Shown here: positions 30 to 25,986 of the stretch, one piece after another
How positions within the stretch are numbered: the first letter of the stretch is position 1
Layout: every line of letters begins with the position of its first letter
Origin: a virus
Reading direction: 5' to 3' (one strand)
Virus record (IMG/VR): IMGVR_UViG_3300006735_000009
Coordinates: 1-28,335 of that record
Length of the DNA stretch: 28,335 nucleotides
The notes under the pieces: model-generated
The model's input: the letters and a program-made list of their open reading frames with translations, nothing else
Databases searched by the model: none
What the model was told of the DNA's origin: nothing
Program-made: the position numbers and the translations under genes

Positions 30-551
30 TTTGAGATATGTAACAATGTACCAACAGAAGCTACTCTAATTGCTTTAGGTTTAGATTGGGGCTATTCTAA
101 CGACCCTACCGCAATAGCAGAAGTATATAAGCTAAATGATGATTTATATATTAATGAATTGTTATATAGTAAAGGTCTAACAAATCAAGACATTGCAAGT
201 AAGCTAAGGGAATTAGGTATAACAAGACAGACAGAAATAATAGGGGATAGTGCTGAACCTAAAAGTATTGAAGAAGTACATAGACTAGGGTTTAATATTA
301 AAGGAGCTAAAAAAGGAGCTGATAGTATTAACATGGGGATTGATGTATTAAGAAGATTTAAGATACATATAACAAAGAATAGTACAAACGCTATAAATGA
401 ATTTAAGTATTATAAATGGTTAGTAGATAAGAACGGACACGTTATAAATAAACCTGCTACAAATCAATTAGACCACTTAATAGACGCTATTAGATATGTT
501 GCTTTAAACAAGCTAACAACTAATTATAGTGGCAAGTATTATATATTATGA
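1..551 (+). CDS. terL: Terminase large subunit, C-terminal nuclease part (continues from window end)
   Basis: This is the 3' part of the large terminase, the motor that cuts concatemeric phage DNA and pumps it into proheads. The frame is open from the first base and joins exactly to the partial gene at 27688-28335, giving about 389 residues in all. The RNase H-like nuclease domain lies here. Acidic residues in the expected places are D235 in GLDWGYSNDP, D289 in GDSAEP, and D364/D368 in DHLIDAIRY (numbered from the TTG at 27688). These should bind the two metal ions for cleavage. The length is at the short end for phage large terminases, but both domains are complete. Seen: the motifs and the frame continuity. 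Known: the family fold. The call is firm. Confidence 0.95.
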   Translation, partial: QPTETIFRQFEICNNVPTEATLIALGLDWGYSNDPTAIAEVYKLNDDLYINELLYSKGLTNQDIASKLRELGITRQTEIIGDSAEPKSIEEVHRLGFNIKGAKKGADSINMGIDVLRRFKIHITKNSTNAINEFKYYKWLVDKNGHVINKPATNQLDHLIDAIRYVALNKLTTNYSGKYYIL

Positions 552-578
552 ACAAAAACGTTGAATTTATATTTATAA
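550..578 (+). promoter_or_regulatory. Late-promoter-like element, copy 1 (GAACAA-N14-TATTTATAA)
   Basis: GAACAA at 550-555 and TATTTATAA at 570-578 are separated by exactly 14 bases, as in three other copies (9150, 10201, 12718). It begins at the last codon of the terminase gene and ends three bases before the ATG at 582, so any transcript would have almost no leader. It is placed to start the tail gene block. That it is a promoter is inferred from its position and spacing. Confidence 0.7.
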
Positions 579-581
579 CAA

Positions 582-1166
582 ATGGCTAGAGAACAATTTG
601 AGGTTATAGTGCCTACTGAATGGAAAGATATTACTATTGCAGAATTTCAAAGGTACTTACAAATAGCAAACACTAAAAGAAAAACTAGAGATGATGAGAT
701 TATTTCTATGTTTTGTAAGATTGATAAGAAGCTAATAAAAAAGCTACAATTAAAACAAAAGAAACTTTTAGTAGATAAAATAAACAAATTTGTAAATAGC
801 AAGAATGAAACGATATTAGAAAAGAGAATAAAGTTTAAAGGAAAGAAATTTGGCTTTGTTCCTAATCTAAGTAAGATAACGACAGGGGAGTTTGTAGATA
901 TTGAAGAATACGGAAAAGACATAAACAAAAATCTACATAGAATTATGAGTGTTCTATATAGAGAAGTAAATAGAGAAGCTGGAGAGTTTTATAGCGTAAA
1001 ACCTTATGACCCTGACGAGTTAGAAATAGACAAGTTTAAAGACTTGCCAATGAGTACTACACTATCAGCGATAGATTTTTTTTTTCGTTTAGGGAGAAAC
1101 TTATTGGAGGATTTAAACAGTTATTCGATGGGGGTGAAGAAGACGAACCAGGAGAAAAAACCTTAG
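582..1166 (+). CDS. Tail assembly chaperone, short form (G-like)
   Basis: This 194-residue protein is the zero-frame product at the place where siphoviruses encode the tail assembly chaperone that loads tape-measure protein during tail building. The N-terminal 165 residues are ordinary coding sequence (for example IVPTEWKDITIAEFQRYL near the start). The last 26 codons, after a run of ten T, are odd: about 11 end in G (GAG, GTG, AAG, ACG, CAG), which is rare elsewhere in this genome. The -1 frame over the same bases has normal codons and continues past this stop. The zero-frame tail may thus be only the short-form end of a G/GT-type pair. Function is inferred from position, size and the frameshift layout. 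Confidence 0.72.
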   Translation: MAREQFEVIVPTEWKDITIAEFQRYLQIANTKRKTRDDEIISMFCKIDKKLIKKLQLKQKKLLVDKINKFVNSKNETILEKRIKFKGKKFGFVPNLSKITTGEFVDIEEYGKDINKNLHRIMSVLYREVNREAGEFYSVKPYDPDELEIDKFKDLPMSTTLSAIDFFFRLGRNLLEDLNSYSMGVKKTNQEKKP

Positions 1167-1330
1167 CTGGTAAATGGGGTTGGTATAATTTAATTTTTAG
1201 TTTATGTAATAATAATTTACTAAACATTGAACCAATAACAAAAACAGAGATTACTTTAGTATTAACATATTTAAGTTACCAACAAGATAAAAGCAACATA
1301 GAAAGAAACAATTATAATAAGCATAAATGA
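582..1330 (+). CDS. Tail assembly chaperone, -1 frameshifted long form (GT-like)
   Basis: A -1 shift at the T10 run (1076-1085) would give a 249-residue protein. The -1 frame is open from 1040 to a TGA at 1328-1330. After the shift it reads into an acidic linker (FDGGEEDEPGEK), then KWGWYNLIFSLCNNN and a helical segment ending near LTYLSYQQDK. This matches the usual layout of a chaperone core plus a T domain beginning with a Trp-Gly-Trp-like motif. The TGA overlaps the next gene's ATG as ATGA, as do many junctions here, so the -1 frame behaves as the true end of the gene. Other explanations are a homopolymer length error or natural length variation at the T run. Confidence 0.75.
1076..1085 (+). 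promoter_or_regulatory. Candidate slippery site for -1 frameshifting (ten T)
   Basis: Zero-frame reading is GAT TTT TTT TTT CGT, which contains the canonical T TTT TTT heptamer for a -1 slip. Codon usage switches from zero frame to -1 frame after this run, placing the shift here and not at the A6 tract near 1155-1160. I see no clear downstream stem-loop or pseudoknot. Confidence 0.65.
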
Positions 1331-1839
1331 TAACATATAAAAACTTTATAGACGATTTTAACACAATAGCTACTAATCATTTTCAAATTAATTCTTTTCA
1401 TAGTGGCATGTTAGATGAAGTAGATATAAATAAATTAGACCAATCAGATTTTCCTATATTATATGTTGAGCCAGGTAATACTAATATAGATAAAGGGGTA
1501 ATGACTTATACGTTTACTGTATTTACTATGAGTTTAATTAAAGAGGATTTAAGCAATAGAGAGGAAGTTTGGGATACCATGCTACAAGTTATGCAAGATA
1601 TTATATCAGAGTTTAGACAAAATCTAGCTGTACAAACATCAGGGAGTGATAGTGGAAAGAAATTTAGCTATATACCTGGAGAAGTAGTTTTAAATCTACC
1701 TATTAATGCAGAACCTTTTACAGTTAGATTTGCTAATATGTTAACTGGTTGGAGTGCTAGTTTTACTATGCAAGTTAATAACCCTAATTCACTTTGTGAC
1801 GCTCCTATTGAACCAAGTGATGAAGCCCCTAATACATAA
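1327..1839 (+). CDS. Probable tail terminator / neck protein
   Basis: This 170-residue protein has no signal peptide or membrane segment. A mixed alpha/beta pattern covers residues 1-160: an N-terminal helix (YKNFIDDFNTIATNH), a strand-rich centre (FPILYVEPGN, MTYTFTVFTMSLI), and a helix (EEVWDTMLQVMQDIISEFR). A C-terminal segment with GWSASFTMQV ends in a Pro/Glu-rich tail. The repeated beta strands around a helix, the size, and the position between the chaperone and a gp10-like protein suit the tail terminator that caps the tail tube. It starts at an ATGA overlap with the frameshifted chaperone and ends at a TAATG overlap with the next gene. I cannot confirm the family from sequence alone. 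Confidence 0.5.
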   Translation: MITYKNFIDDFNTIATNHFQINSFHSGMLDEVDINKLDQSDFPILYVEPGNTNIDKGVMTYTFTVFTMSLIKEDLSNREEVWDTMLQVMQDIISEFRQNLAVQTSGSDSGKKFSYIPGEVVLNLPINAEPFTVRFANMLTGWSASFTMQVNNPNSLCDAPIEPSDEAPNT

Positions 1840-2447
1840 TGGAATTAGATACAACAGAAATAGAAGCTGTACTAAGTAATTTTGGAAGTAGATTAATTCA
1901 AAATGCTAGACGTAGACTAACTTTAAAAAAGAAAAGAGCAAGGGGAGTTTTATTTAATCAAATGAGCTATGATATTGAAAAAACAGTTACGGGAGTCGAA
2001 TTTAAAATGAATTTCGGTTTAGCCACCCATTACTGGCGTTTTGTTGATGAGGGAGTACAAGGAAAAGGGGGGTTTAAAGGTAGTGGTAGAGCTAGGGGTT
2101 ATGGTAGTCCGTTTAGATTTGGTACAAATACTGGTCAAGAAGGTGGATTGCGTAAAGCTATTAGGCGTTGGATAAATACTAAAGGAATAAAAGGAAGAAT
2201 ACAGAAAGATTGGAAAAATAACAAAGGGGCAGGGAGATTTATAACAAATGATAGTTTAGTATTCTTAATATCAAGAAGTATCTATCAAAGAGGACTAGCA
2301 AGAACTAGGTTTATATCACAGCCTTTTAGTGAGATGTACCCAGAATTAATATATAATATGCAATTAGCCTCAGTAAAAGACATAGAAACAACTGAAGATA
2401 AAGAGTTAAAAACACAAAATATGAAAATTAAAATAAATACAATATAA
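1839..2447 (+). CDS. Probable head-tail / tail completion protein (HK97 gp10-like)
   Basis: This 202-residue basic protein has an N-terminal helix with the run ARRRLTLKKKRARG, then strands and the segment ATHYWRFVDEGVQGKGG near residues 65-85. A Gly/Arg-rich stretch (GSGRARGYGSPFRFG) follows, then a C-terminal helical part with a TRFISQPF motif. The pattern 'Y..FV..G..G', then basic loops and late F/I-x-P, recalls the HK97 gp10-like family that joins head and tail. It is coupled to both neighbours by TAATG overlaps. The role is an inference from composition and position. Confidence 0.5.
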   Translation: MELDTTEIEAVLSNFGSRLIQNARRRLTLKKKRARGVLFNQMSYDIEKTVTGVEFKMNFGLATHYWRFVDEGVQGKGGFKGSGRARGYGSPFRFGTNTGQEGGLRKAIRRWINTKGIKGRIQKDWKNNKGAGRFITNDSLVFLISRSIYQRGLARTRFISQPFSEMYPELIYNMQLASVKDIETTEDKELKTQNMKIKINTI

Positions 2448-3958
2448 TGTCATATAGCATAGAACAACAACCTAATAAATTTGTGGCTTGTAATAGCCCT
2501 TTAGTTTATGTAGTAAAAGAGGACTCAGGAGCAATAACTGGAGCAGCTAAATTTAGATATATTGTACAAGTACAAATAAGTACATCTAATACGGGAGCTT
2601 TAGCAACTATAGGAAAATTAAAGTTACATAAAAATAAAGCAGGAGTAGGTATTGTAGATGTTAGTAAAATAGTAAGAACTTATTTAGAAACACAACAAGT
2701 AAATGAAAATTCAGACATTAATAGTATACATGGTTTAGGTACAGTAGAAACAAGTAAACCCTTTTCACAAAACAATAAACAAGCTATAGCAATAAGAATA
2801 TTAGGGGGTTATGAAACAGCTACAAGTCAAACAGCTGCTCCTACTGAAAATTTAACCCCAGCAGGAACTTATACAAGTAATATTGCAATAGGTATACCAG
2901 CTACAACTCCTTATACTAATACTGCTACTAATGTAGGGGGATTAGATAATGGCACAAACTTTCCTTTAAACTTTTATAAAAATGACGCTACTAATGAAGA
3001 TGATTATGGTTTTTTAACTAATGCTCCAACTGTTCAATTTGTTAGAGGGGGTGATACAAGTGGTGATAATGTAGATGAGGGTACTATATGTTTTAAACAA
3101 GGTAATAATGCTAGTAGTAGTATTGTGACAGTAGGAGAGAAAATAGAACATATAGCTATACAATACTTTAATAGTGCAGGAAATTTAATAGCTGGCACAA
3201 GTGGTAGCTCTACAGTACATTTTTTTATTAATTCTATTGCTAATGGTGGTGCTACTGCGTCTGAATCTACAACTGTAGATAAAGCAATATTATACTTTGG
3301 TTGTGGTACTAAAAATTTACAATTGCAAACAGATACAGTTATTAATGGTTCAGGAGCTTCGGTTACGGGTATAAATGCTAGACCTAGTAATTTCTCTAAT
3401 TGGGCTTATTATAAAATTTGTGGAACAACAACGAGCGCTAGTACTAATGGTCAGCCTGATACTAGATGTACTAAATTTTATAGTTTCTATAGATATGGAA
3501 GTGGAGCAAAAGTAGATGATAGACACCAAAGCTGTATTAGATATGATAACGTTAGACTAGCATGGAGAAACAGATTAGGAGCTTGGGATTATATGAACTT
3601 TAGAGGTAAATCAACAGAAAGCGTAGACGTAACAAGTGAAGAAATGGAGAGCGTCCCAGGTACTTGGAATTTAGCTAGATATAATTATTATAATTATGAA
3701 AGAGGAAAACAAACATTATTTACAGAAGCTAAAAGAAAATTAGTTGTAAATTCTGATTATTTAAATGAAGATGAGGCGGTATGGTTAGAAGAGTTATTTA
3801 CTTCTACTGACGTTCAAATTATAGATGATAATAGTGTAGTCTATCCTGTTGTAATAACAAGCAAAAACTATATTAAAAAAACAAGCGTAAATGATAAGGT
3901 TAAAATACAATATACAGTTAATTTAGAGTACGCTAACAAAGTAAGAACTAATAGCTAA
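2447..3958 (+). CDS. Structural tail protein, unrecognised family
   Basis: This is a 503-residue protein without a signal peptide. Residues 1-130 are mainly strands (FVACNSPLVYVVKE, KFRYIVQVQIS) and include GVGIVDVSKIVRTYLETQ. The centre (about 135-330) is rich in Thr, Asn, Gly and Ser with few charges, typical of extended virion beta-structure. The C-terminal third has aromatic and charged segments (RLAWRNRLGAWDYMNFRG, then NYYNYERGKQ) and regular strands. It lies between neck proteins and a 1110-residue tail protein, coupled by TAATG overlaps. It is likely a tail or baseplate component, perhaps carbohydrate-binding. No enzyme motif is visible. Confidence 0.5.
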   Translation: MSYSIEQQPNKFVACNSPLVYVVKEDSGAITGAAKFRYIVQVQISTSNTGALATIGKLKLHKNKAGVGIVDVSKIVRTYLETQQVNENSDINSIHGLGTVETSKPFSQNNKQAIAIRILGGYETATSQTAAPTENLTPAGTYTSNIAIGIPATTPYTNTATNVGGLDNGTNFPLNFYKNDATNEDDYGFLTNAPTVQFVRGGDTSGDNVDEGTICFKQGNNASSSIVTVGEKIEHIAIQYFNSAGNLIAGTSGSSTVHFFINSIANGGATASESTTVDKAILYFGCGTKNLQLQTDTVINGSGASVTGINARPSNFSNWAYYKICGTTTSASTNGQPDTRCTKFYSFYRYGSGAKVDDRHQSCIRYDNVRLAWRNRLGAWDYMNFRGKSTESVDVTSEEMESVPGTWNLARYNYYNYERGKQTLFTEAKRKLVVNSDYLNEDEAVWLEELFTSTDVQIIDDNSVVYPVVITSKNYIKKTSVNDKVKIQYTVNLEYANKVRTNS

Positions 3959-6900
3959 TGGACGTAAGATTAGTAGCATATCGTAGAGAAACAACAGGAG
4001 ATGATAATTTTGATGTAACACAATTTGAGCTAGATTTACAACAAGCTCCTAATGTTGTAGTTAACTATAATTGGTTAGATTTAAAAAACCCTGATACAAG
4101 AAAGTCTAGTTTTAGTCAAACTTTAAAGCTACCTTTTTCTAATGCTAATAATGATTTCTTTGAAAATTACTTTGATGTTAATTTAGAAAGTTTAGTCTAT
4201 AACTCTAAAACTAAATTTAGTGCTATTTTATATATAGATAGTATTCCACAACTAAAAGGCTTTATACAATTAAAGTCTATCTATATGAACGCTAGGTTGT
4301 ATGAGGTTGCTTTATTTGGTGATACTGCTGATTTCTTTACTGACTTAAAAGACAATAGATTAAAAGACGCTTTTAGTATTCAAGATGATAGTGATCCTGA
4401 GCTATATCTATTAAGTAGAATGTTAGACCACAAACTAACACTAGCTAATATTGTTAATAGTTGGACTTCACCAGGTTTAACAACTGAATTAGGTACTACA
4501 ACTAATGATGTAATGTATCCCATAATAGATTACGGACACACCCTTAATCCCTATTCAGGTTCTATGTTTTGGAGTCCTGATGATATAACACAAGCAGTAA
4601 ATGAATTAGGAGGTAGTATAAATGACGCTTTTAATTATTATAGTATGGTTGAGGCTTCTAATTTAAAACCTGCAATTAGAGTTCAAAGGCTTTTACATAT
4701 TATTGCCTCAATAACAGGTTATACAATTAAAAGCACGTTTTTAGGAATAGATGGCGATACACTTTCTGATACGTCTTGGTTTAGTAGATTGTTTATGACT
4801 TTATCTACTGAACACAATAGGGTACAAACATTGTTTAATACTACTGAGGATAGTGAAGCTCCATTTATAGGTTTTCAGGCTAATATGTCTAGCTCCTCAG
4901 GAGATACTACATTTCCTGTAACTGATCCTACAGGTATTGGTTTAGTAGAAAGTGTATTTAGTAATTTAGATGTAGATAATGAAGTATTTGATCCTAATGG
5001 TTTATATAATAACCAATTAACAGATTGGGGTGTTGGTGGTATTACAGGAGTAGATACACCATCTATAAAAATACCTGTAGATATAGAAGATAATACTCTA
5101 TTGTCTTTAGGGTCAATATCAGTAAAAGTTACTCTAACCATTAATATTGATGATACAATTAGTCCTAGTGGTGGTAATTTAAGCGTAGTACAATTAAGAC
5201 CTCGTTGGTATAATCAAACAACTAATGAGCCTGTTGGCTTTGGTTTTGAACAAAGTGTTTTTACAGGATCTAATGTAACAATAGAAGAAACACAAGAATT
5301 ACCAGTAATTCCTGGTACAATATATTATTTTTTATTAGAGTGCGTACCTTATCCAGTATCAATCCAAACTGGAACACAAAGCGCTACTGCAACAATATCA
5401 GCTTGTACTATAGAAACGCTACAAACAGATAACGTAGGATTAATGTCAGGGGGGTTAAATGGTGAGGTGCAAATGTACCACAACATGCCTGATATGACAC
5501 AAGCAGACTTTGTAAAAGATTTAGTAAATAGATTTAATTTAATTATACAAACTGATCCTGATAATGAAAAAGAATTATTAATAGAACCTTATCAAGATTA
5601 TATAAATGGGGGTACTACGCAATATTGGACGGATAAATTAGATGTATCAAAAGAGCAAGTTATAAGACCCACAAACGAATTACAATCTAAAGTATTAAAG
5701 TTTAGCGATTTAGAAGATGAAGATATTTTAAATCAAAGATATAAAGATATATACAATACTGTTTATGGTACTTATACAGAAAATAGAAAAAATGATTTTG
5801 CTAATAATGAATTTGAAAACTTTAGTGTTTTTGCACCTTTTATAGCACAAGGAATAGGTCAATGGGATGGTAATACCATAAATGGATCTTTACCTAATCC
5901 TAATGTAGCTTTAGCTTATTTATTTAAAGCTGAATTAGGTCAAGCAAGAAGCCCCCTAGAAACAATGAAACCTAGATTGTTTTATTATAGTGGAACACCT
6001 ATTGATATAACAGGAGAAAACCCAAATACAGGAAACGATTTTGCTTTTAATATATACTCTAGTCAATTTATACAAACAGGAGATAGCTTATCAACAAGTA
6101 ATAAGTTTCCATTATGTACGCAATATAACTTAGACACTTTAGGTTCTGTAACTGCTGACACTAAATTATTACATTGGACTTGGTATAATCCTAATTTTGA
6201 TACAGGCTTTACATTTAATTATTTTGGACTTACTATAAGTGAGCATGGTTTGTATAATGATTATTGGGCACAATACATAAATGAGATATATAGTGATGAC
6301 GCTAGAATAATGGAATGTTATTTAAACCTTAATCCTGTTGATATTGAAACTTTTGCAGGAACAGGTTTTAAAAACGTATATTATATTAAGAATACTTTAT
6401 GGAGAATTATTAGCGTAGATAATTATTTAGTAGGTGGTAATAAATCTACTAAAGTTACATTGTTAAAAGTTATAGAAAAATTAACTAATGATTGTGGGGC
6501 TATAGGAACTATCACCGCAGGTACAGGCTTAATGACTTGGGTAGACGCAGGTACAGGATTAAGTACAACTATAACTAATACTTGTTGTGAGGAAGTAAAT
6601 TCTGACTGGACTTTTGTACAAACTAATACAACTACAGGAGTTGGAGATTGTTACGCAAGTGGAAATACAATAAGTGTAGGAGAGGGGGTGGTAAATGATA
6701 ATGATGACATACCCCCTGAACAACTACCTATGCCCTCATTAATGCCTAATCTACAAACTAACTATAATATAATCACTACTAATGGTAATGCCTATACTAC
6801 TACTTATTATATGCAGGGTACAACATTAGATAGTAGCACAACTACAAATTTTAATTATAATGGTATGCAAAGTCAAATGATGTCTTTGTCTATATTGAGT

Positions 6901-7290
6901 ATGAATTATGTTAAGGTTAATTTATTAGGTAGTATAGTGTCAGGTACTAATTCTGGAAAGTGTGGCTATTTTGAATATGATACAGTATTAATAAATAGAG
7001 ACAATACTAATTCACAAGTAGGAACTGCAGGGGGTGATTTATTAAAAACAAATAAGGATAGTGCTTTTACTACTCCTACTGTTAATATAACAACATTTGA
7101 CAATAGGGGTTTTTGGACTCCTACTATAGTTGGTGGAGCTAGTGAAAGAGTACACTGGGTAGCTAAAGTAGAATTAATTAGACAACCTTTGGGTGATCCT
7201 GATGGTACGCTAACACCAACAGTAAAAGCAATATATCAAAATGCAGATAATATAATTTTACAAAATTTAGACAATTTATTATGGAACTAG
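3958..7290 (+). CDS. Large tail / baseplate protein
   Basis: This 1110-residue product is the largest in the genome. Residues 15-130 form an ordered domain with LDLKNPDTRKSSFSQTLKLP and FFENYFDVNLESLVYN, reading like a tail-tip domain. Later parts are Thr/Asn/Gly-rich beta sequence (about 290-480), a mixed domain from 490 to 850, and a final Thr/Asn-rich stretch with two near-copies of TAGTGLMTW/DAGTGLSTT near residues 850-875. Cysteines cluster here (DCGAIG, NTCCEE). There is no signal peptide or membrane helix. Its place just before the tape measure gene is unusual, since tip proteins usually follow it. A tail-tip or central fibre role is likely but not proven. Confidence 0.55.
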   Translation: MDVRLVAYRRETTGDDNFDVTQFELDLQQAPNVVVNYNWLDLKNPDTRKSSFSQTLKLPFSNANNDFFENYFDVNLESLVYNSKTKFSAILYIDSIPQLKGFIQLKSIYMNARLYEVALFGDTADFFTDLKDNRLKDAFSIQDDSDPELYLLSRMLDHKLTLANIVNSWTSPGLTTELGTTTNDVMYPIIDYGHTLNPYSGSMFWSPDDITQAVNELGGSINDAFNYYSMVEASNLKPAIRVQRLLHIIASITGYTIKSTFLGIDGDTLSDTSWFSRLFMTLSTEHNRVQTLFNTTEDSEAPFIGFQANMSSSSGDTTFPVTDPTGIGLVESVFSNLDVDNEVFDPNGLYNNQLTDWGVGGITGVDTPSIKIPVDIEDNTLLSLGSISVKVTLTINIDDTISPSGGNLSVVQLRPRWYNQTTNEPVGFGFEQSVFTGSNVTIEETQELPVIPGTIYYFLLECVPYPVSIQTGTQSATATISACTIETLQTDNVGLMSGGLNGEVQMYHNMPDMTQADFVKDLVNRFNLIIQTDPDNEKELLIEPYQDYINGGTTQYWTDKLDVSKEQVIRPTNELQSKVLKFSDLEDEDILNQRYKDIYNTVYGTYTENRKNDFANNEFENFSVFAPFIAQGIGQWDGNTINGSLPNPNVALAYLFKAELGQARSPLETMKPRLFYYSGTPIDITGENPNTGNDFAFNIYSSQFIQTGDSLSTSNKFPLCTQYNLDTLGSVTADTKLLHWTWYNPNFDTGFTFNYFGLTISEHGLYNDYWAQYINEIYSDDARIMECYLNLNPVDIETFAGTGFKNVYYIKNTLWRIISVDNYLVGGNKSTKVTLLKVIEKLTNDCGAIGTITAGTGLMTWVDAGTGLSTTITNTCCEEVNSDWTFVQTNTTTGVGDCYASGNTISVGEGVVNDNDDIPPEQLPMPSLMPNLQTNYNIITTNGNAYTTTYYMQGTTLDSSTTTNFNYNGMQSQMMSLSILSMNYVKVNLLGSIVSGTNSGKCGYFEYDTVLINRDNTNSQVGTAGGDLLKTNKDSAFTTPTVNITTFDNRGFWTPTIVGGASERVHWVAKVELIRQPLGDPDGTLTPTVKAIYQNADNIILQNLDNLLWN

Positions 7291-7454
7291 AAAAATACAT
7301 TAAAGAGGTAGGTAGGCTTATGCCTATATCAATTAACCTTTTAACAGAATTAGAAGCAAAGGGAAATAAATACGCTTTTGAAACGGGAGCTAATGAATTT
7401 CCTACAACATTTAAAGAACTATTTAAAAAGATAAAAATATGGCGGAAAAAGTAA
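7281..7454 (+). CDS. Small hypothetical protein between tail-tip and tape measure genes
   Basis: This is a 57-residue, Lys/Glu-rich, mostly helical protein starting MELEKYIKEVGRLMPISINL and ending in KIKIWRKK. It overlaps the end of the 1110-residue gene by 10 bases and the tape-measure start by 16 bases, so it fills an otherwise empty 148-base gap. Codon usage is like its neighbours. The overlap on both sides supports a real gene. Its place before the tape measure would suit a small tail assembly factor, but the function is unknown. Confidence 0.65.
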   Translation: MELEKYIKEVGRLMPISINLLTELEAKGNKYAFETGANEFPTTFKELFKKIKIWRKK

Positions 7455-9151
7455 CAATAGAAGTAGAGGCAGATGTTCAAGAGGCTTTACAAAATTTAGA
7501 GAAAATAAAAGACAAAATAGATGAGATGAATGACAATGTAGAAGACATGGGTAAAACTTCTAAATCTTCTGCAACTGCAACAAAAGGTTTAGCAACTGGT
7601 TTTAGAGGTGTTGGCTTGGCTATGAAAGCTGCGGGGTTTGGTATAGTATTAAAGCTAGTAGATATGTTAGCTTCTGCTTTAATGCAGAATCAAGAAGTAG
7701 TAGATACTGTTTCAACTGCCTTTAATGTAATTGGTATAGTAATGAATAAAATTATTACAACATTTAAAACTATATACGATAGGGTTACTGCAAACAATGA
7801 TAACTTTGACGCGTTAGGAAGAATAATAAAAAACTTAATGACAATTGCTTTAACTCCTTTAAAATTAACTTTTTTTACACTTGTTAAAGTTTTTAAAGAG
7901 GTTCAGTTAGCTTGGGAGAAGTCCTGGCTAGGTAAAGGTGATGTAAAAAAAATACAAAAATTAACTAAACAAATAGATGACTACACAAAAAAAATAAAAA
8001 AGACCACAAATGAAGCAATAAAAGCGGGCGTAAATATTATGGTAGATTTTAAAGAGGGTGTAGGGGAAGTAATGAATATAGCTACAGTAGTACAAGAGGA
8101 GTTTACAAATACTCTTGATGGCATGACGGTTAATAGTGTTTTAAATCAAGCTAGAGGAGTTACTAGAGCAAAAAATAACATAAGTTTATTAGCTGCAGGT
8201 CAACAAGAGCTAATCCTTTTAGCACAAGCCGAAGCTGAAGCTCAACGAATAGTAAGAGATGATATTTCTAAAACTTTTGATGAAAGACTAGAGGCTAATA
8301 GACAATTATTAGTATTATCAGAAGAAGCTAGATTACTTGAAGAAGAAGGAACTAGAAAACAAATAGCTGCTTTAAATACTCAATTATCTATAGATAAAAA
8401 AAATGTAGATTTATTAACGCAAAAAAAAGAATTAGAAAATAATTTAATAGAAATTGGGTTAAGGGAAAAGGCTTTAAAAAAAGAACAAAAAGAACAAGAA
8501 AACGCATTGCTACTAGAAAAAAATGCTATTTTACAAGAACTATCTAGAATAGGTATAGAAGAAGAAGATAGAAGACAGTTAGAGTTTGAACAAGAAAAAC
8601 AAAGATTACTTAAACTAGCTGAGTTAACTATAAGTAATGAAAAAGATTTAGCTGACACTAGATTAAGGATAGAGGAAGATTTTCAAAAAAAGAAAGACGC
8701 ACTAGACAAAGAAAACTTAGCAAAAGAACAAGCGTTACAAGACCAAAAAAGACAAATAATAGGTAGTGCTTTAACTGGTATAACAGCGTTAGTAGGAGCT
8801 GAAACAAAGACGGGTAAAGCGTTAGCTGTAGCTCAAGCAACTATGGACACTTATGCAGGGGCAAATAAAGCAATAGCTCAAGGTGGTTTATTTGGTACTA
8901 TTTCAGCCGTAGGAATAATAGCTACTGGTTTAGCAAACGTTAGAAATATATTAGACACAAATATACCAGGAGAAACTGGGGGGGATGAATCACCAACACC
9001 ACCAGCTACGATTCAAGATACTATTCCAACAGTACCTACATTTGGAGCTATAGGAACTGAACCACCACCAGTACAAGCATTTGTAGTAGAAAGTGATGTA
9101 AGTAGTAGTCAGGCTTTACAAAATGATTTAAACTTACAAGCAACGTTATAA
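7439..9151 (+). CDS. Tail tape measure protein
   Basis: This 570-residue protein sets tail length in siphoviruses. Residues 10-40 are amphipathic helix. Gly/Ala-rich hydrophobic segments follow at about 55-80 (GLAMKAAGFGIVLKLVDMLA), 95-110 and 130-150. A long charged coiled coil fills about 250-445, with many Glu, Lys, Leu and Gln. Residues 450-520 hold another Ala/Gly-rich hydrophobic part (GSALTGITALVGAET, GTISAVGIIATGLANV), and a Pro-rich tail ends the protein. This order is typical of tape measures. At 570 residues it predicts a short tail. It starts within the end of the small gene before it, and a late-promoter-like element overlaps its stop codon. Confidence 0.88.
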   Translation: MAEKVTIEVEADVQEALQNLEKIKDKIDEMNDNVEDMGKTSKSSATATKGLATGFRGVGLAMKAAGFGIVLKLVDMLASALMQNQEVVDTVSTAFNVIGIVMNKIITTFKTIYDRVTANNDNFDALGRIIKNLMTIALTPLKLTFFTLVKVFKEVQLAWEKSWLGKGDVKKIQKLTKQIDDYTKKIKKTTNEAIKAGVNIMVDFKEGVGEVMNIATVVQEEFTNTLDGMTVNSVLNQARGVTRAKNNISLLAAGQQELILLAQAEAEAQRIVRDDISKTFDERLEANRQLLVLSEEARLLEEEGTRKQIAALNTQLSIDKKNVDLLTQKKELENNLIEIGLREKALKKEQKEQENALLLEKNAILQELSRIGIEEEDRRQLEFEQEKQRLLKLAELTISNEKDLADTRLRIEEDFQKKKDALDKENLAKEQALQDQKRQIIGSALTGITALVGAETKTGKALAVAQATMDTYAGANKAIAQGGLFGTISAVGIIATGLANVRNILDTNIPGETGGDESPTPPATIQDTIPTVPTFGAIGTEPPPVQAFVVESDVSSSQALQNDLNLQATL

Positions 9152-9178
9152 ACAATTTTAAACAAATTATATTTATAA
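9150..9178 (+). promoter_or_regulatory. Late-promoter-like element, copy 2 (AAACAA-N14-TATTTATAA)
   Basis: AAACAA at 9150-9155, 14 bases, then TATTTATAA at 9170-9178. It begins at the tape-measure stop codon and ends only two bases before the ATG at 9181. If this is a promoter, the head-gene message would be leaderless or nearly so. Confidence 0.68.
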
Positions 9179-9180
9179 GT

Positions 9181-10194
9181 ATGAGCAAAGAAAAAATAAA
9201 AAAGGTAGAATTAATAATAGATGAAGATTCAGAGAGATTTGGCGTTGAGGCTATTAGTTTAGTAGAATTTCCAGCAATAGAAGAAAACTGGGTGTTTTTT
9301 AATAAAGACCAATTTTTAACTTTAGCTAAATTAGATGAAGAACAAAAGACTTTAGTAGGAGCTGTTTTAATTCCTAATAAAGAGATACCTAGATACGACC
9401 AAGACAAAGACGAAAAGTACACAGTATTTTTTACAGAAGATACTATTAAAAAAGCTCAAGAGTTATTTATGTCAACTTTAAGAAACAATAGTGCTACTTA
9501 TGAGCATAAAGTACCAGTAGAGGGAATGACAGTTGTAGAGAGTTGGATTAAAGAAGATAAGAAAAATGATAAGTCTAATTCTTATGGATTTAATAAACTT
9601 CCAATCGGGAGTTGGTTTGTAAAAATGAAAGTTAACAATCCTGAAATTTGGGAATCAGTAAAAGAGGGTAAAGTTAGAGGCTTTAGTATTGAGGGATATT
9701 TCACAGATAGAGTAATTGAAGCTTCAAGACCTAAAGATATTATAGACCTAGCTGAAAAATGTACTGATTGCCCTGATGAAGTTACACTAGGTAAAATAAG
9801 AGATTTAATATTAGAAAACGAATTAGCTGTTGTAGGTAGTTTAGATGGAGAGCCTTTATTTGCTACTAAAGAAGAAGCTAAGATATACGCTGAAATGTTT
9901 AAAGGATGTAAAGGTTTTCATATACATAAAGTAAATGGAGTTACTAGATACATGGCTTGTGAAACTCACGCAGATAGTGTTAAGAAAGAATATGTTGAAG
10001 ATGAGTTTGGTAAAAAGAAAAAGAAATACAAGAAAAAATATAAATACGTTGAGTACGCTAGTTTTGTTAATAGACAAGCTCTAGCTGTTTATAAATGGGA
10101 ACAATGTATAAAAGATATGGTAAAACAATACGGAAGCAAAGAAACTGCTGCTAAAGTCTGTTCTGCCATTAAAAATAGGACAGTAAGACGCTAG
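9181..10194 (+). CDS. Prohead protease (XkdF-like serine protease) with C-terminal extension
   Basis: This 337-residue protein should mature the prohead by cutting scaffold and capsid precursor. The N-terminal 180 residues match the XkdF-like pattern: GVEAISLVEFPAIEENW near residue 21, GAVLIPNKEIPR at 60-71, HKVPVEGM with H109, and GFSIEGYF with candidate nucleophile S169. The remaining part is an extension: a Cys/His segment (FKGCKGFHIHKVNG, then YMACETHAD), a Lys-rich linker (KKKKKYKKKYKY), and a C-terminal helix set (WEQCIKDMVKQYGSKET). Scaffold and capsid genes follow, which supports the role. It starts two bases after a late-promoter-like element. Confidence 0.82.
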   Translation: MSKEKIKKVELIIDEDSERFGVEAISLVEFPAIEENWVFFNKDQFLTLAKLDEEQKTLVGAVLIPNKEIPRYDQDKDEKYTVFFTEDTIKKAQELFMSTLRNNSATYEHKVPVEGMTVVESWIKEDKKNDKSNSYGFNKLPIGSWFVKMKVNNPEIWESVKEGKVRGFSIEGYFTDRVIEASRPKDIIDLAEKCTDCPDEVTLGKIRDLILENELAVVGSLDGEPLFATKEEAKIYAEMFKGCKGFHIHKVNGVTRYMACETHADSVKKEYVEDEFGKKKKKYKKKYKYVEYASFVNRQALAVYKWEQCIKDMVKQYGSKETAAKVCSAIKNRTVRR

Positions 10195-10200
10195 TCCTAT
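10175..10200 (+). other. Perfect inverted repeat at the protease stop codon
   Basis: ATAGGAC (10175-10181) pairs with GTCCTAT (10194-10200) across a 12-base loop. The stop codon lies at the start of the right arm. No T run follows, so it is a poor intrinsic terminator. It directly abuts the third late-promoter-like element at 10201. Confidence 0.5.
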
Positions 10201-10229
10201 GAACAATAATTTAAGTTTAATATTTATAA
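10201..10229 (+). promoter_or_regulatory. Late-promoter-like element, copy 3 (GAACAA-N14-TATTTATAA)
   Basis: GAACAA at 10201-10206 and TATTTATAA at 10221-10229 are again 14 bases apart. The ATG of the scaffold gene follows 13 bases later, behind an A-rich leader with AAAAGG. It is placed to give scaffold and capsid genes their own strong transcript. Confidence 0.72.
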
Positions 10230-10242
10230 AAAAAAGGTAACA

Positions 10243-10890
10243 ATGAGTACACTAGAAAAAATCAAAACGCTTTTATCTTCTAATAAGGAAGAAAGCAAAG
10301 AAACAAAAATGTATGCAGAAATGATACTAGATGATGGTAGAGTATTAGCAACGGAAGATGAGCAATTTATGATTGGCTCAGTTGTTATGGTTGTAGGAGA
10401 TGATGGAGAAACTTCTAAATTATCTGCAGGTACATACACAATGTCTGATGGAGCTAAAATGACAGTAGACGAAGATTCTAAAATTATGGACTTAGGCGAA
10501 GAAAAAGAAGCAGAGGAAGTAGAAAACGAAGAAGATAAAGAAGAAATGGCAGAAGATGATGAGGCTGATGTTGAAGACTGGGCAGGTATGGAAAAGAGAA
10601 TTAAAAATCTTGAGGACGCTGTTGCAGACTTAAAAGCTGATAAAGAAAGCATGTCTATTGAAACAGAAGAAACTATTGAAGAAGATGAGAAAGTTGAAAT
10701 GTCTAAAGATATGGTAAACAGTTTAGTTGAAGAAGTTGAAGAACTAAAAGCTAAAATTGTTGAATTAGAAAAAGAACCAGGAGCAAAGGGTTTTACTCAT
10801 ACTCCAGAAAATAATACTAAATCAGAAAAAGTTGATTTAGCAAGAATGTCTGCAACTGAAAGAGCAGCATATTACATTAACAATAAATAA
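10243..10890 (+). CDS. Probable capsid scaffold protein
   Basis: This 215-residue, very acidic protein sits between the prohead protease and the major capsid genes. Residues 20-85 form a small strand-rich domain (YAEMILDDGRVLATEDEQF, GSVVMVVGDDGE). Residues 85-125 are nearly all Glu, Asp and Lys, and 115-180 form a coiled coil (MEKRIKNLEDAVADLKADKE). The C-terminal 30 residues are less acidic and end ATERAAYYINNK, a possible capsid-binding tail. Acidic charge, coiled coil and gene order are typical of phage scaffolds. The distinct N-terminal domain may be a separate module, such as a fused decoration-like fold. Role inferred from position and composition. Confidence 0.7.
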   Translation: MSTLEKIKTLLSSNKEESKETKMYAEMILDDGRVLATEDEQFMIGSVVMVVGDDGETSKLSAGTYTMSDGAKMTVDEDSKIMDLGEEKEAEEVENEEDKEEMAEDDEADVEDWAGMEKRIKNLEDAVADLKADKESMSIETEETIEEDEKVEMSKDMVNSLVEEVEELKAKIVELEKEPGAKGFTHTPENNTKSEKVDLARMSATERAAYYINNK

Positions 10891-10906
10891 TTTAAATTTT
10901 AAAAAA

Positions 10907-11908
10907 ATGGCGAATAACAAATACAATTTATCAAAAGAGTATCAGTTTGACATAACTGTTACTGACAACACTTACGCAGGTAAGTTAGCTTTGCCTTATG
11001 TAACTGCTGCAGTTAAAAGTCCTGACACAGTTGCTAAAGGATATGTAAGAACAATAGACGGATTAAATAGAAAAGCAGTTATATCTAATTTAGGTATTTC
11101 TGACCCTATTCAAGCTGCTAATTGTGATTTTAGTACAGGCTTTCCTGGAGCTCCAACTTTAACAGAGCAAGTTTTAACGCTTACTGATTTAAAAGTAAAT
11201 GAATCAGTTTGTCGTGGAACAATTTTTCCTACTTGGATTGGAGAAAATATGGATAGAAACGGAAATCTTCCTGGAACATTTGAGGACTTCTTATTATCTA
11301 CTGTTGCAGGAAAATCAGGTGAGCAATTAGAAGAATTTATATGGACAGGAGCTGCACCTTTTGGAACAGGCTTCTTATCAGATGACGGAGTGTTTGACCA
11401 AGCAGGACTTAACGCTTCTGCATTAGCAGACTTTCCACAGGTAACTATGGCAGGTGGTGCAGGTATTGACTCAACTAACGCAGTTGCTTCATTTGGAAAA
11501 GTATATGATAGTGCAGCAGCAAATTCACCTGCGATACTATCTAAAGCAGGAATAGGATTTTACTGTAATAATAAAACTTATGGCTTTTATATTCAACAAT
11601 TAGCAGGTCAGGGAGCATTTACAGTACATCAGGGTATAAACAATATGGGTCCAGACCAAGCGTTTCCAAGTGCTACATATTTAGGTATTCCTATTAATGT
11701 TTGTCCAGGAATGCCAGATGACGCTATTGTAATGACTTACAGAGATAACCTAGTATTTGGAACTAACTTAGCTACTGATTGGACAGAAGCTAGAATTATA
11801 CCAACTTACCAATATGACGGTTCTGATAATGTAAGAATAGTTATGAACTTTGCAGTAGGTGTGCAGGTATCAGTTAAAACTGACGGTGTTGTTGGTTGTG
11901 ACTTCTAA
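10907..11908 (+). CDS. Major capsid protein
   Basis: This 333-residue protein follows protease and scaffold and is itself followed by a strong terminator, as expected for the most abundant virion protein. It starts with a short polar N-arm and contains long Gly/Ala-rich stretches, many Asn-Pro-Gly turns, and a C-terminal part with NVRIVMNFAVGVQVSV, like the core of HK97-type capsid folds. Cysteines occur near residues 68, 101, 217, 257 and 331. The length is normal for a genome of this size. The family cannot be named from motifs alone, but position and composition make the call strong. Confidence 0.85.
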   Translation: MANNKYNLSKEYQFDITVTDNTYAGKLALPYVTAAVKSPDTVAKGYVRTIDGLNRKAVISNLGISDPIQAANCDFSTGFPGAPTLTEQVLTLTDLKVNESVCRGTIFPTWIGENMDRNGNLPGTFEDFLLSTVAGKSGEQLEEFIWTGAAPFGTGFLSDDGVFDQAGLNASALADFPQVTMAGGAGIDSTNAVASFGKVYDSAAANSPAILSKAGIGFYCNNKTYGFYIQQLAGQGAFTVHQGINNMGPDQAFPSATYLGIPINVCPGMPDDAIVMTYRDNLVFGTNLATDWTEARIIPTYQYDGSDNVRIVMNFAVGVQVSVKTDGVVGCDF

Positions 11909-11921
11909 ATTGAATTAAATT

Positions 11922-11951
11922 AAGGGGTATGAAATACTACCCCTTTTTTTT
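11922..11951 (+). terminator. Intrinsic terminator after the capsid gene
   Basis: AAGGGGTA (11922-11929) pairs perfectly with TACCCCTT (11938-11945) over an 8-base loop, and T continues to 11951. The stem is GC-rich for this genome and lies 14 bases after the capsid stop. It may be partly read through, since no promoter-like element of the late type precedes the major tail protein gene. Confidence 0.92.
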
Positions 11952-11984
11952 AAAAGGAATATTAATAATTAAAAACAAATAACA

Positions 11985-12599
11985 ATGGCTTGTATATTAA
12001 CAAGAGGACGATTAGTAGATTGTAAAGACCAGATTGGTGGTTTAAAAACTATCTTTTTTTGTGCAGGATATTCTAGTAATATAGGACAACATGCTACTTT
12101 AAATGGTACTGACGCTTTACAAATAGATACTGCTGGTTTTACTGGTTGGAGTGCTTATGGAAACCCAACGGGTTCTACAATGACTTTATTTAAGTATGAT
12201 TTAAGACCTAATTTATCTTCAATGACTATTAATACTAATAGTGACCCTGCAAATGGAACTACTTTCTTTGAGCAAACATTATCTTTAACATTACAAAAGC
12301 TAACTGTTCAACAAACTAATGAGCTTAAACTAATGTGTTACAATAGAGTACAGATTTTCGTTCAAGATATGAACGATAACGTATTCTTATTAGGCTTTGA
12401 TAACGGAATGGACGTGTCGGGCGGGACGATTGTTTCGGGCGCTGCAAAGGGGGATATGACTGGATATACTATAGAATTAAGAGGAGAAGAAGTTAATCCT
12501 ATGTATTTTATAAAAAAGACTAATGGAAGTGGAACAGACTATCCATTTGACCAATTAGGAGACGCTGATTCTGAACTAACTATTGTATCAGGAACATAA
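11985..12599 (+). CDS. Major tail (tube) protein
   Basis: This 204-residue protein lies between two intrinsic terminators directly after the capsid gene, which suggests high, separately controlled expression. It begins CILTRGRLVDCKDQIGGL and has alternating strands (TMTLFKYDLRPNLSS, FFEQTLSLTLQKL), a helix (QQTNELKLMCYN), and a late strand set (DMTGYTIELRGEE) ending VSGT. This order of strands around one helix and the final 'GY.iel.geE' are typical of tail tube proteins. A short GC-rich patch with unusual codons lies at 12411-12454. No other gene here fits the tube protein better, but the call rests on pattern and position. Confidence 0.72.
   Translation: MACILTRGRLVDCKDQIGGLKTIFFCAGYSSNIGQHATLNGTDALQIDTAGFTGWSAYGNPTGSTMTLFKYDLRPNLSSMTINTNSDPANGTTFFEQTLSLTLQKLTVQQTNELKLMCYNRVQIFVQDMNDNVFLLGFDNGMDVSGGTIVSGAAKGDMTGYTIELRGEEVNPMYFIKKTNGSGTDYPFDQLGDADSELTIVSGT
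12411..12454 (+). other. GC-rich, codon-anomalous patch in the major tail protein gene
   Basis: About 65% GC over 40 bases in an AT-rich genome. Codons include GTG TCG GGC GGG ACG, which are rare nearby. TCGGGCG occurs twice, at 12417-12423 and 12435-12441, 18 bases apart. The reading frame is kept and encodes VSGGTIVSGAAKGD, a likely surface loop. Confidence 0.8.
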
Positions 12600-12626
12600 T
12601 CAATAATCGTTACTCAATATTAAAAG

Positions 12627-12654
12627 AGGGTTATCTATTCGGTAACCCTTTTTT
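12627..12654 (+). terminator. Intrinsic terminator after the major tail protein gene
   Basis: AGGGTTA (12627-12633) pairs with TAACCCT (12643-12649) over a 9-base loop, followed by T to 12654. It lies 27 bases after the stop codon and ends the capsid/tail-tube block. Confidence 0.92.
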
Positions 12655-12683
12655 ATTAACTAAACTTTACAATTAATATAATA

Positions 12684-12703
12684 ATATAAAATAACTTTTA
12701 TAT
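12684..12703. repeat. AT-only inverted repeat, candidate operator (copy 1)
   Basis: ATATAAAA and TTTTATAT form perfect 8-base arms around TAAC. With flanks, 12683-12706 nearly matches 23143-23165, upstream of the replication initiator. TAAACTTTA lies upstream in both places. It sits between the terminator and the fourth late-promoter-like element. Operator function is inferred; AT-rich palindromes can arise by chance. Confidence 0.4.
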
Positions 12704-12717
12704 AATATACAAGTTGT

Positions 12718-12746
12718 GAACAATATTGTTACTTTTATATTTATAA
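12718..12746 (+). promoter_or_regulatory. Late-promoter-like element, copy 4 (GAACAA-N14-TATTTATAA)
   Basis: GAACAA at 12718-12723 and TATTTATAA at 12738-12746 have the same 14-base spacing as the other three. The upstream box lies inside a perfect palindrome, AACAATATTGTT (12719-12730), so a repressor could also bind here. It follows a strong terminator and precedes the ATG at 12759 by 12 bases, so it must drive the portal and lysis genes unless read-through does. Confidence 0.75.
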
Positions 12747-18106: not shown

Positions 18107-18817
18107 ATGAAAAAATTATTATTCTTTTTGGTGTTTAGTTTTAGCTTTAGTCAATCTAATTGTGAATTATGCGTAGAGCAAAATGGTTTTTATTGTGGTG
18201 ATGATGAGTCTAACTGGACGCAATACAGTCCTAATGGCTGTGTTCCTAATAATTGGATAAATGATGGCTGGGTAGATTGTGTTGATTCAAGCGATGAGGG
18301 AGAAGATGTAGTACCTACTACAGCTTTAGACTGTATACCGCCTACGCCTATTTGTGATACAGTTTTTGTAGATGTACCTTTTTATATATATGAAACTATT
18401 ATACAATTAGATACTGTATATCAAACAGAATATATAACACAAATAGTAGTAGACACTGTATTGTTAGAAACGTTTATACCTGAATTTATATTTATAACTG
18501 ATACTGTTTATGCAGAAGTGCTTGACACCATGTATATAAATGTAGTAGACACTTTAGAAATTACAGTATTAGATACAATAATTGAAACAGAGTATATTGA
18601 ATTTTTTATAACTGATACAGTTGTAGAATATATTGATGTTGTTTCTACAGAATATATAGATTGTTTAACTGGTTTACCATGTGGTAATATTGGTATAATT
18701 GAGATACTTAAAAAATCTCAAAACAAAAATAAAATATATAACATTGAGGGAAAAGAAATATATAGACGTAAAGGGTTATATATAGAGAATGGAAAAATAA
18801 ATTTTAAATTAAAATAA
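18107..18817 (+). CDS. Exported Asp-Thr repeat protein with a type IX sorting-like tail
   Basis: This is a 236-residue protein. Residues 1-16 are a signal peptide (MKKLLFFLVFSFSFSQ). Residues 19-85 hold eight cysteines and many Asp/Trp, suggesting a disulfide-bonded head. Residues 84-172 contain eight D-T-[VMLI] repeats (at 84, 102, 116, 132, 140, 148, 156, 170), with an 8-residue period in the middle, set in Ile/Val/Tyr-rich sequence with no Lys or Arg. The C-terminal 27 residues (KIYNIEGKEIYRRKGLYIEN plus seven more) resemble a shortened type IX secretion sorting domain ('vyN..G.ev...kGiYi.ng'). Its start follows the barrel-like gene by two bases. A surface-exposed role is inferred; no function is known. 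Confidence 0.55.
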   Translation: MKKLLFFLVFSFSFSQSNCELCVEQNGFYCGDDESNWTQYSPNGCVPNNWINDGWVDCVDSSDEGEDVVPTTALDCIPPTPICDTVFVDVPFYIYETIIQLDTVYQTEYITQIVVDTVLLETFIPEFIFITDTVYAEVLDTMYINVVDTLEITVLDTIIETEYIEFFITDTVVEYIDVVSTEYIDCLTGLPCGNIGIIEILKKSQNKNKIYNIEGKEIYRRKGLYIENGKINFKLK

Positions 18818-22343: not shown

Positions 22344-22376
22344 CAAATATATGTAAAATATTTTTAATAAAACAAA
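22344..22376 (-). promoter_or_regulatory. Leftward promoter, Bacteroidetes sigma type
   Basis: On the minus strand TATATTTG (22351 to 22344) matches the TAnnTTTG -7 box, and TTTG (22376 to 22373) lies 21 bases upstream as a -33 box. The predicted start would be near 22338, about 15 bases before the ATG at 22322. Confidence 0.6.
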
Positions 22377-22425: not shown

Positions 22426-22452
22426 TTTGTAAAGTTATTTTAATTATATTTG
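22426..22452 (+). promoter_or_regulatory. Rightward promoter, Bacteroidetes sigma type
   Basis: TATATTTG at 22445-22452 fits the TAnnTTTG -7 box, and TTTG at 22426-22429 is a possible -33 box with a 15-base spacer, shorter than usual. It would start transcription near 22459, just before the regulator ATG at 22468. With the leftward promoter it forms a divergent control region. Confidence 0.58.
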
Positions 22453-23105: not shown

Positions 23106-23143
23106 CTATTGAATGTTAATAACTAATAATTAAACTTTATAAA

Positions 23144-23162
23144 ATATAAAATAATTTTATAT
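23144..23162. repeat. AT-only inverted repeat, candidate operator (copy 2)
   Basis: ATATAAAAT and ATTTTATAT form perfect 9-base arms around a single A. It is nearly identical to the repeat at 12684 and lies 12 bases before the initiator ATG, where a bound protein would block its expression. An origin-related role is also possible. Confidence 0.45.
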
Positions 23163-23174
23163 AATTTTAGGCAA

Positions 23175-23963
23175 ATGAAAAAATCAATACTAGCAACTAC
23201 TCCTTTTTTAATTTTAAATAAATGTCTTCTCGTTAATTTAGGGGTAGACGCTAGTTTGGTTCTTTCTGACCTTATACAAAAAGAAGAATACTTTAAAGAT
23301 AGCTCTCAAAATAATGGGGGCTATTTTTTTAATGTAACAAATGACATAAGCTGTAGTACAACTTTAAGTTACTATCAAATAAAACAAGCATTATCCGTAC
23401 TTGAAAAGTGGGGTATAATTAAGGTAGTACTAAAAGGTGTACCAGCTAAAAAGCATTTTAAGATAGACCACTCCCAGATATTAAGTTTTTTAACATCTAG
23501 TATTGAAAAAACTTCACAACTAGATTGTGAAAATTTTAATAACAAGATGTTAAATAATTCTAAAACTATTAATAAGAATAAAGAAATAAGAATTAAAAAT
23601 AAGAATGTATATACACGCAAAGAAAAGTTTTTAAATGATTTAAAAGAATTAGAACCTAAAGAGCATATAGAGGACTTTGTAGATTATTGGACAGAAGAAA
23701 ATAATGTTGGAAAACAGCGTTGGGAATTAGAGAAAACTTGGAATACTAATTTACGATACAAAAGGTGGTGTAAAAATCAAAAGAATTTTAGTAAAGGAAG
23801 TAGTGCAAATAATATGCCTGATTTTTTAGATGGAGCTTATATAAATAGAATTAAAGAAGACCAAGCACAATTAAATAAGTTTTACAAACACCTTGTAGAT
23901 AATTGTCAGTATGAAAAATTTGAAACGCTAACTGGTTATATTAAATACAGAAAGAAAAAATGA
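23175..23963 (+). CDS. Replication initiator-like winged-helix protein
   Basis: This is a 262-residue protein. Residues 25-103 form a winged helix of the phage replication type: GGYFFNVTNDIS, SYYQIKQALSVLEKWGIIKV, then a wing with KKHFKIDHSQ. A low-complexity Asn/Lys linker covers about 120-147. The C-terminal domain (165-203) has FVDYWTEENNVGKQRWELEK and TWNTNLRYKRWCKN, the pattern F..YW.E..vGk.RWE.ekTW found at the ends of phage and plasmid initiators. It likely opens the origin and recruits host replication proteins, since no phage polymerase or helicase is present. It is preceded by a palindrome and an AT-rich stretch. Its stop overlaps the next ATG. Confidence 0.7.
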   Translation: MKKSILATTPFLILNKCLLVNLGVDASLVLSDLIQKEEYFKDSSQNNGGYFFNVTNDISCSTTLSYYQIKQALSVLEKWGIIKVVLKGVPAKKHFKIDHSQILSFLTSSIEKTSQLDCENFNNKMLNNSKTINKNKEIRIKNKNVYTRKEKFLNDLKELEPKEHIEDFVDYWTEENNVGKQRWELEKTWNTNLRYKRWCKNQKNFSKGSSANNMPDFLDGAYINRIKEDQAQLNKFYKHLVDNCQYEKFETLTGYIKYRKKK

Positions 23964-25180: not shown

Positions 25181-25471
25181 ATGAGAAAAAAACACGAACC
25201 TTTTAAGAACATTAGAACAAAAGACGGCAGAGAAAACTTTACATATTTTTTATTTGAAGTAGATAGAGGAGTTACAAGTGATGTATTTATACATAAAGAA
25301 ACACAGATTATAATTGATGAAGATGAATACATACTTAATAAGATTGATTTTATACAAGACCAATACAGCCCTCAAATGGTAGTAGTAGAAATAAGCCCTT
25401 TAGGTAAATGGGAGTATAATGCTTTAAAAAATTCAGGTGTTAATTTATTTATTGAGCTTTGCAAAAACTAA
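25181..25471 (+). CDS. Hypothetical protein between nuclease and sigma-like gene
   Basis: This 96-residue protein begins MRKKHEPFKNIRTKDGRENF and contains strands separated by short helices (TYFLFEVDRGVTSD, PQMVVVEISPLGKWEYNALK). It has no membrane segment or catalytic motif. It starts at the end of the restored nuclease frame (ATGA), and the sigma-like gene begins before its stop. Function unknown. Confidence 0.6.
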   Translation: MRKKHEPFKNIRTKDGRENFTYFLFEVDRGVTSDVFIHKETQIIIDEDEYILNKIDFIQDQYSPQMVVVEISPLGKWEYNALKNSGVNLFIELCKN

Positions 25472-25986
25472 ATACATATTTAGAAAAGAGTTACACTAAT
25501 TTGTTAGATATATCTAAACGTATAACTAGCAATAAATACCCTGACTGTGAAGATTTGTTACACGAAACAATATTAGCTTTATACGATTCTAATCAAGAAA
25601 AGATTAAAGTAATAATAGAAAAAAAACAACTAACTTTTTATATAGTTAGAATAATGATGAACCAATACCAAAGTAATACTAGCCCTTATCACAAAAAATA
25701 TAGAAAACAATACAACGAAAAACAATTAAAAGAATTTTATATTTATACTAAAGAACCTCTAACAAAAGAAAAAATGAAGAAGCTAGAGGAACAAGAAGAT
25801 AGATTACAATGGATAGATGAGAAGTTAAAAGGTTTAAGTTGGTTTGATGTAGAGGTATTTAGAATATATTTTAGAGAGGGTTTTAGCTTAAACAAAATGC
25901 AGAAAGAAACAAAGATAAATAGAAGTACACTAGGGAAGTCAATTAGATTTATTAAAAATTTTTTAAAAAATGAAAAACAAAAGTAA
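25459..25986 (+). CDS. Sigma-factor-like regulator (ECF-type layout)
   Basis: This is a 175-residue protein with a TTG start at 25459, 13 bases inside the preceding gene; no ATG lies nearby. Residues 11-70 resemble sigma region 2 (SYTNLLDISKRITSNKYPDC, then EDLLHETILALYD). Residues 115-172 resemble region 4, with WFDVEVFRIYFREGFSLNKM and an HTH INRSTLGKSIRFIKNF that could read a -35 box. The two are joined by a Lys/Glu-rich linker, as in ECF sigma factors. It would redirect host RNA polymerase. The four RAACAA-N14-TATTTATAA sites are obvious candidate targets, which is inference. Alternatively it is a terminase-associated HTH protein of the same layout. Confidence 0.65.
   Translation: MQKLNTYLEKSYTNLLDISKRITSNKYPDCEDLLHETILALYDSNQEKIKVIIEKKQLTFYIVRIMMNQYQSNTSPYHKKYRKQYNEKQLKEFYIYTKEPLTKEKMKKLEEQEDRLQWIDEKLKGLSWFDVEVFRIYFREGFSLNKMQKETKINRSTLGKSIRFIKNFLKNEKQK

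Follow-up and report, generated by a model that had tools for sequence, protein, structure and literature searches.

The question raised by this locus is whether a two-box element repeated ahead of the virion genes of a small phage is a promoter and, if so, which protein reads it. The window, meaning the whole stretch of DNA analysed, is the entire virus record of 28,335 bp and carries a 29-bp terminal repeat, from which the record was deduced to be probably complete. Judged from its sequence, the phage is small, tailed and kin to flavobacterial phages, and a flavobacterial host was inferred from its relatives and its promoter style. Profile searches gave the following landmarks by start position:

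7439, tape measure
9181, head protease
10907, virion/capsid protein (the scaffold-like gene starts at 10243)
13715, portal
19656, endolysin-like protein
23175, O-like replication protein

The gene at 582 is the first of the block leading to the tail genes. By our reading, TerL was named from its own sequence and from its position spanning the ends of the record. A tblastn search of named phages gave no relative of the protein encoded at 3958-7290.

The initial annotation had described four copies of RAACAA-N14-TATTTATAA, all on the plus strand and ending 2 to 13 nt before the start codons of late blocks. These points were reproduced, as four exact copies were found on the plus strand and none on the minus strand:

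550..578, plus strand, proposed late promoter P1, GAACAA-N14-TATTTATAA, 3 nt before the ATG at 582 and overlapping the terminase stop codon; 37/37 loci
9150..9178, plus strand, proposed late promoter P2, AAACAA-N14-TATTTATAA, 2 nt ahead of the start codon of the protease gene (9181); 69/69 loci
10201..10229, plus strand, proposed late promoter P3, GAACAA-N14-TATTTATAA, 13 nt before the ATG at 10243 (scaffold-like gene, then capsid); 64/66 loci
12718..12746, plus strand, proposed late promoter P4, GAACAA-N14-TATTTATAA, 12 nt before the ATG at 12759 (portal/lysis block); 43/46 loci

The genes concerned fit late blocks, leading from 582 to the tail genes and comprising the protease (9181), the scaffold-like and capsid genes (10243 and 10907) and the portal (13715). 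Equal numbers of matches in shuffled sequence would have refuted the annotation, but dinucleotide shuffles averaged 0.01 exact matches against the four found, and when spacers of 5 to 30 nt were scanned, exact matches occurred at 14 alone. Scored with a matrix of the boxes, P1 to P4 gave 22.5-25.8 bits, the top shuffle 18.7 bits and the next site (P5, described below) 11.6 bits. Matches with three mismatches were rejected as being at chance level (21 found versus 20.6 expected). A matrix built from relatives widened the consensus to about TTRTRAACAA-N13-ATATTTATAA. Separately, a group of unrelated phages (L087, L055, L062, L021 and L122) was seen to repeat ATATTTATAA 10-25 nt before several genes; the AAACAA box is mostly absent there, and the tail genes are T4-like (by visual inspection of L087).

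Two intrinsic-terminator-like hairpins lie in the same region:

11922..11951, plus strand, hairpin after the capsid gene, from the terminator scan
12628..12654, plus strand, hairpin GGGTTA..TAACCC followed by a T run, just upstream of P4

The second was read from the sequence and was not flagged by the terminator scanner, which had a loop limit of 8 nt; the number of hairpins returned by the scan was no higher than in shuffles. Two intergenic stretches, 12650-12715 and 23107-23170, both carry TAAACTTTA...ATATAAAATAA-TTTTATATAAT, possibly another regulatory element.

Relatives for footprinting were retrieved by using the protease and the sigma-like protein as queries. Among 218 related loci, 213 had the box pair ahead of the corresponding gene of these four, with a spacer of 14, or 15 in some distant loci, and it was kept even where the downstream genes were just 35-60% identical. 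Two of the five exceptions (L174 and L175) are of one type, in which an inverted-repeat insertion of ~60 nt separates the boxes from the start codon. In the record that holds L175 (G017), the P4 boxes are intact upstream of the insertion and the start lies about 85 nt away. Many of the matches listed in an exact-motif scan of the collection were due to chance; those listed also include more distant relatives with the motif before homologous genes.

The claim that no other copy exists did not survive. A fifth element with one mismatch had been overlooked within the gene for the sigma-like protein:

25459..25986, plus strand, ECF-type (sigma2 plus sigma4) sigma-like protein of 175 aa, the proposed reader of the boxes (predicted fold, weak profile match)
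25720..25748, plus strand, fifth element P5, AAACAA-N14-TATTTATAC, within the sigma-like gene (one mismatch)

Synonymous sites across P5 are nearly invariant in relatives, with a diversity of 0.043 compared to 0.320 in the rest of the gene (39 unique sigma genes). The corresponding stretch of a distant clade gave 0.033 compared to 0.299. Since synonymous variation is suppressed in both clades, 7-9 times below that of the remaining gene, P5 was deduced to be under selection. When 3974 nine-codon windows of the phage were ranked by this measure, P5 fell within the lowest three; another of the three is the frame overlap between the TerS-like gene and TerL. P5 probably drives the downstream block of HNH, ParB-like and terminase genes.

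The closeness of all four main sites to an ATG (2-13 nt), together with the overlap of two of them with the stop codon of the upstream gene, could also suggest a signal for translation initiation or coupling, and Flavobacterium relies for translation on adenines immediately ahead of the start codon (PMC6847099). This reading is scarcely tenable, however, as the boxes extend 30 nt upstream with a fixed spacer, other plus-strand genes have no boxes, and no known gene start lies directly 3' of P5. The boxes of G017 remain intact though the start is displaced, which likewise argues against a translation signal. The elements are taken here to be promoters.

The distant clade (protease 50-69% identical) proved informative as to what reads them. 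All four of its main sites have the form AAACRA-N14/15-TATATA, followed by CTA, ATA or similar, so that the downstream box is TATATA in place of TATTTA. Because the four sites are mutually non-homologous, the identical change at all of them implies, as far as sequence comparison can tell, that one trans-acting protein reads the four main sites. The downstream box of P5 in this clade is TATATTTAA, unlike that of its other four. A further site in the distant clade, within the 18107-type gene (AAACGA-N15-TATATAAT), was not claimed, as it lies in coding sequence and its synonymous variation is just modestly reduced. The C terminus of the 18107 protein in the window (KIYNIEGKEIYRRKG...KINFKLK; 18700-18815) is one that we take to resemble type IX secretion C-terminal signals.

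The maximum-likelihood tree inferred from 32 sigma proteins has a single switch of box type, on a branch with support of 99/98, and none of 500 label shuffles gave a count as low as a single change. The box change and the divergence of the sigma are thus one event on the tree, and their pairing is not replicated. Between the clades, identity is 46% in the putative -10-reading loop (sigma residues 71-84), compared to 68% in the putative region 4 recognition helix (residues 154-168); these limits were assigned by analogy with ECF sigmas. The difference fits a changed -10 box and a kept -35 box, although by its nature this agreement is correlative.

In ECF promoters, the -35 box contains AAC and precedes the -10 box by about 16-17 nt, and the late boxes of the phage are similar, with an AAC core upstream and about 16 nt to the downstream box. 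The ECF likeness that had been noted was borne out, since RAAC followed by 16 nt and TATTTA is fixed in relatives. The phage -10 box itself, TATTTA, is unlike the CGT- or TCTGA-like boxes that are usual at ECF promoters. A CGT-like -10 box is among those usual for ECF sigmas (PMC9723704). The view that the elements are not of the usual host type was also upheld, as TTTG at -33 and TAHHTTTG at -7 were found in none of the five. In contrast to the housekeeping sigmaA promoters of Bacteroidetes, the late boxes lack the TTG and TTTG elements. The TTG/TAHHTTTG arrangement is the housekeeping type of Flavobacterium (PMC6847099, PMC9723704), and promoters of this kind do occur at the early region of the phage. 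Outside genes, the sole matches to TTG-N15..21-TAHHTTTG were two divergent ones, at 22427(+) and 22375(-), before two presumed early gene sets, and none was found outside genes in the structural region:

22427..22452, plus strand, promoter of host type for the rightward early operon, TTG-N15-TATATTTG; its -7 box is variable among relatives
22344..22375, minus strand, promoter of host type for the leftward early genes, TTG-N21-TATATTTG (pattern match)

The sigma-like protein that had been noted at 25459 has a predicted ECF-type fold and, at 175 aa, sigma2 and sigma4 domains only, meeting the size and domain criterion for an ECF sigma (those two domains alone, about 160-200 aa). Sequence support is weak. 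The PHROG 1740 'sigma factor' profile matched the window protein at E 4.7e-5; Pfam gave no match for it, while Sigma70_r2 was matched in 7 of 25 homologs (best E 0.032). The AlphaFold2 model, made from 25 sequences, consists of two helical domains (mean pLDDT 79, pTM 0.45). The top five Foldseek matches were transcription initiation complexes, four of which are M. tuberculosis structures. Matches 2 to 6 are all sigmas of such M. tuberculosis complexes, with ECF sigma H or L accounting for at least four. Since their E-values were 0.02 or worse, with none under 0.001, the fold support rests on the consistency of the list. By VIA-align, the whole chain gave a Z of 9.7 to an ECF sigma over 151 residues, with the large rmsd of 14.8 attributed to a different predicted orientation of the domains. 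The separate parts gave Z 9.1 to the sigma2 part of an RpoE (3.3 A over 81 residues) and Z 8.7 to a sigma4 domain (1.9 A over 63 residues). The protein resembles the ECF group (group 4) in having sigma2 and sigma4 only and in having ECF structures among its best fold matches, but differs in that its sequence is distant from known families and no anti-sigma gene was recognised. A homolog was present in 13 of 20 related records, including all ten of at least 28.5 kb; the seven without a match measure 12.7-24.7 kb and are probably fragments. The gene is placed upstream of the terminase genes. No relative of the window sigma was found among named phages by tblastn, or among cellular genomes in one scan of genome contigs.

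With so weak a sequence likeness, the boxes could instead be read by an alternative sigma of the host, with the phage protein doing something else. Flavobacterium psychrophilum has seven ECF sigmas and one sigma54, with their own promoter motifs (PMC9723704). This is unlikely, as RAACAA/TATTTATAA fits none of the described host motifs (sigma54 -24/-12, TAnnTTGY and the CGT -10 box), the box shift at the four sites tracks the clades of the phage sigma, and every relative searched that reaches 28.5 kb or more was found to have the sigma gene. It is also conceivable that the host polymerase is recruited by a phage activator bound at the boxes and not by a sigma, and a conserved bipartite site would be compatible with an activator site plus a -10 box. 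We regard this as quite improbable given the ECF-like layout, with its spacer fixed at 14-15, and the protein of predicted ECF fold encoded upstream of the terminase genes, although no other DNA-binding candidate was compared for co-variation. The sigma that reads the boxes is very probably made by the phage itself; there are no binding data.

The phage-specific late switch that had been suggested is supported by the observed sites and their conservation, by the clade-wide concerted box change and its single occurrence on the sigma tree, by the predicted ECF-type fold of a protein that co-occurs with the boxes, and by the restriction of host-type promoters to the early region. The layout is also that of a phage late sigma/late promoter system, since the sites precede blocks of virion genes and the phage sigma gene lies outside them. 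On this evidence, we consider with good confidence that the five elements are late promoters read by host RNA polymerase with the phage sigma, with binding, start points, timing and the identity of the reader all being inferred. The host-type promoters at 22.4 kb would switch on early genes, including that of the 175-aa ECF-type sigma. This sigma would then direct host RNA polymerase to both boxes, with RAACAA as a -35-like box read by sigma4 and ATATTTA as a -10-like box read by sigma2, and transcription would start for the packaging, tail, protease, capsid and portal/lysis blocks. The distance from the -7 element to the start point is 4-5 nt in Flavobacterium (PMC6847099), from which it follows that transcription from P1 and P2 would start on the ATG or only a few bases from it. 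With a start point on or just before the ATG, these mRNAs would be leaderless or nearly so; just 5.5% of the mRNAs mapped in F. psychrophilum are leaderless (PMC9723704).

The late promoter of T4 is a single TATAAATA box without a -35, whereas the window promoters have a conserved RAACAA at a fixed distance upstream of TATTTATAA. The proposed sigma resembles T4 gp55 and SPO1 gp28 and gp34, which redirect host RNA polymerase to phage promoters (PMC9429907), but differs from these systems in its two boxes, its two-domain ECF-type sigma and its setting among kin of flavobacterial phages. No report of these late promoters, nor of a described phage sigma for this kind of phage, was found in the open-access literature. 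We lean, if only slightly, towards an undescribed late switch of Bacteroidota phages that combines an ECF-type phage sigma, two-box promoters, near-leaderless virion mRNAs, one promoter within the sigma gene and a -10 specificity rewritten at all main sites in one clade.

The best named relatives of the portal are those of the Nonlabens (Persicivirga) phages P12024S/L, at 32% identity. P12024S contains six exact AAACAA-N14/15-CGTTAAT sites, or seven with a relaxed pattern (shuffles 0.01 and 0.06), each on the plus strand and immediately ahead of a gene; the genes include that of the protease, the one just before the portal, and one between the sigma-like gp33 and the terminase. P12024S resembles the window phage in that bipartite sites with AAACAA-N14/15 lie a few nt ahead of its late genes and in having a sigma-like gene, there with sigma-70 region 2 and placed between a VRR-NUC gene and the terminase, but its downstream box, CGTTAAT, is different. 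The gp33 protein passes the Pfam cut-off for Sigma-70 region 2 but could not be aligned to the window sigma by BLASTP or hhalign. No report of the P12024S sites was found in the open-access literature. P12024S is cultured and thus offers a system for a bench test of the hypothesis. The relatives of the window phage supply a naturally occurring set of sigma/promoter pairs in which the -10 box is of two types and the -35 box hardly varies, so that sigma specificity could be tested by swapping. Flavobacteria and E. coli have different transcription signals, and the elements also offer a source of compact orthogonal promoters for the former.

Two observations concern other genes. Within the portal (13715-15889), the internal segment of residues 411-505 matches part of Roseobacter phage proteins at 61-64% identity, a value far higher than that of the remaining portal protein. 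The O-like replication gene has several windows almost without synonymous variation in relatives (23484-23585; also 23310-23336 and 23787-23813). This stretch holds TTAACATCT/AGATGTTAA and CACAA/TTGTG inverted repeats, and on these sequence features it is a candidate intragenic replication origin.
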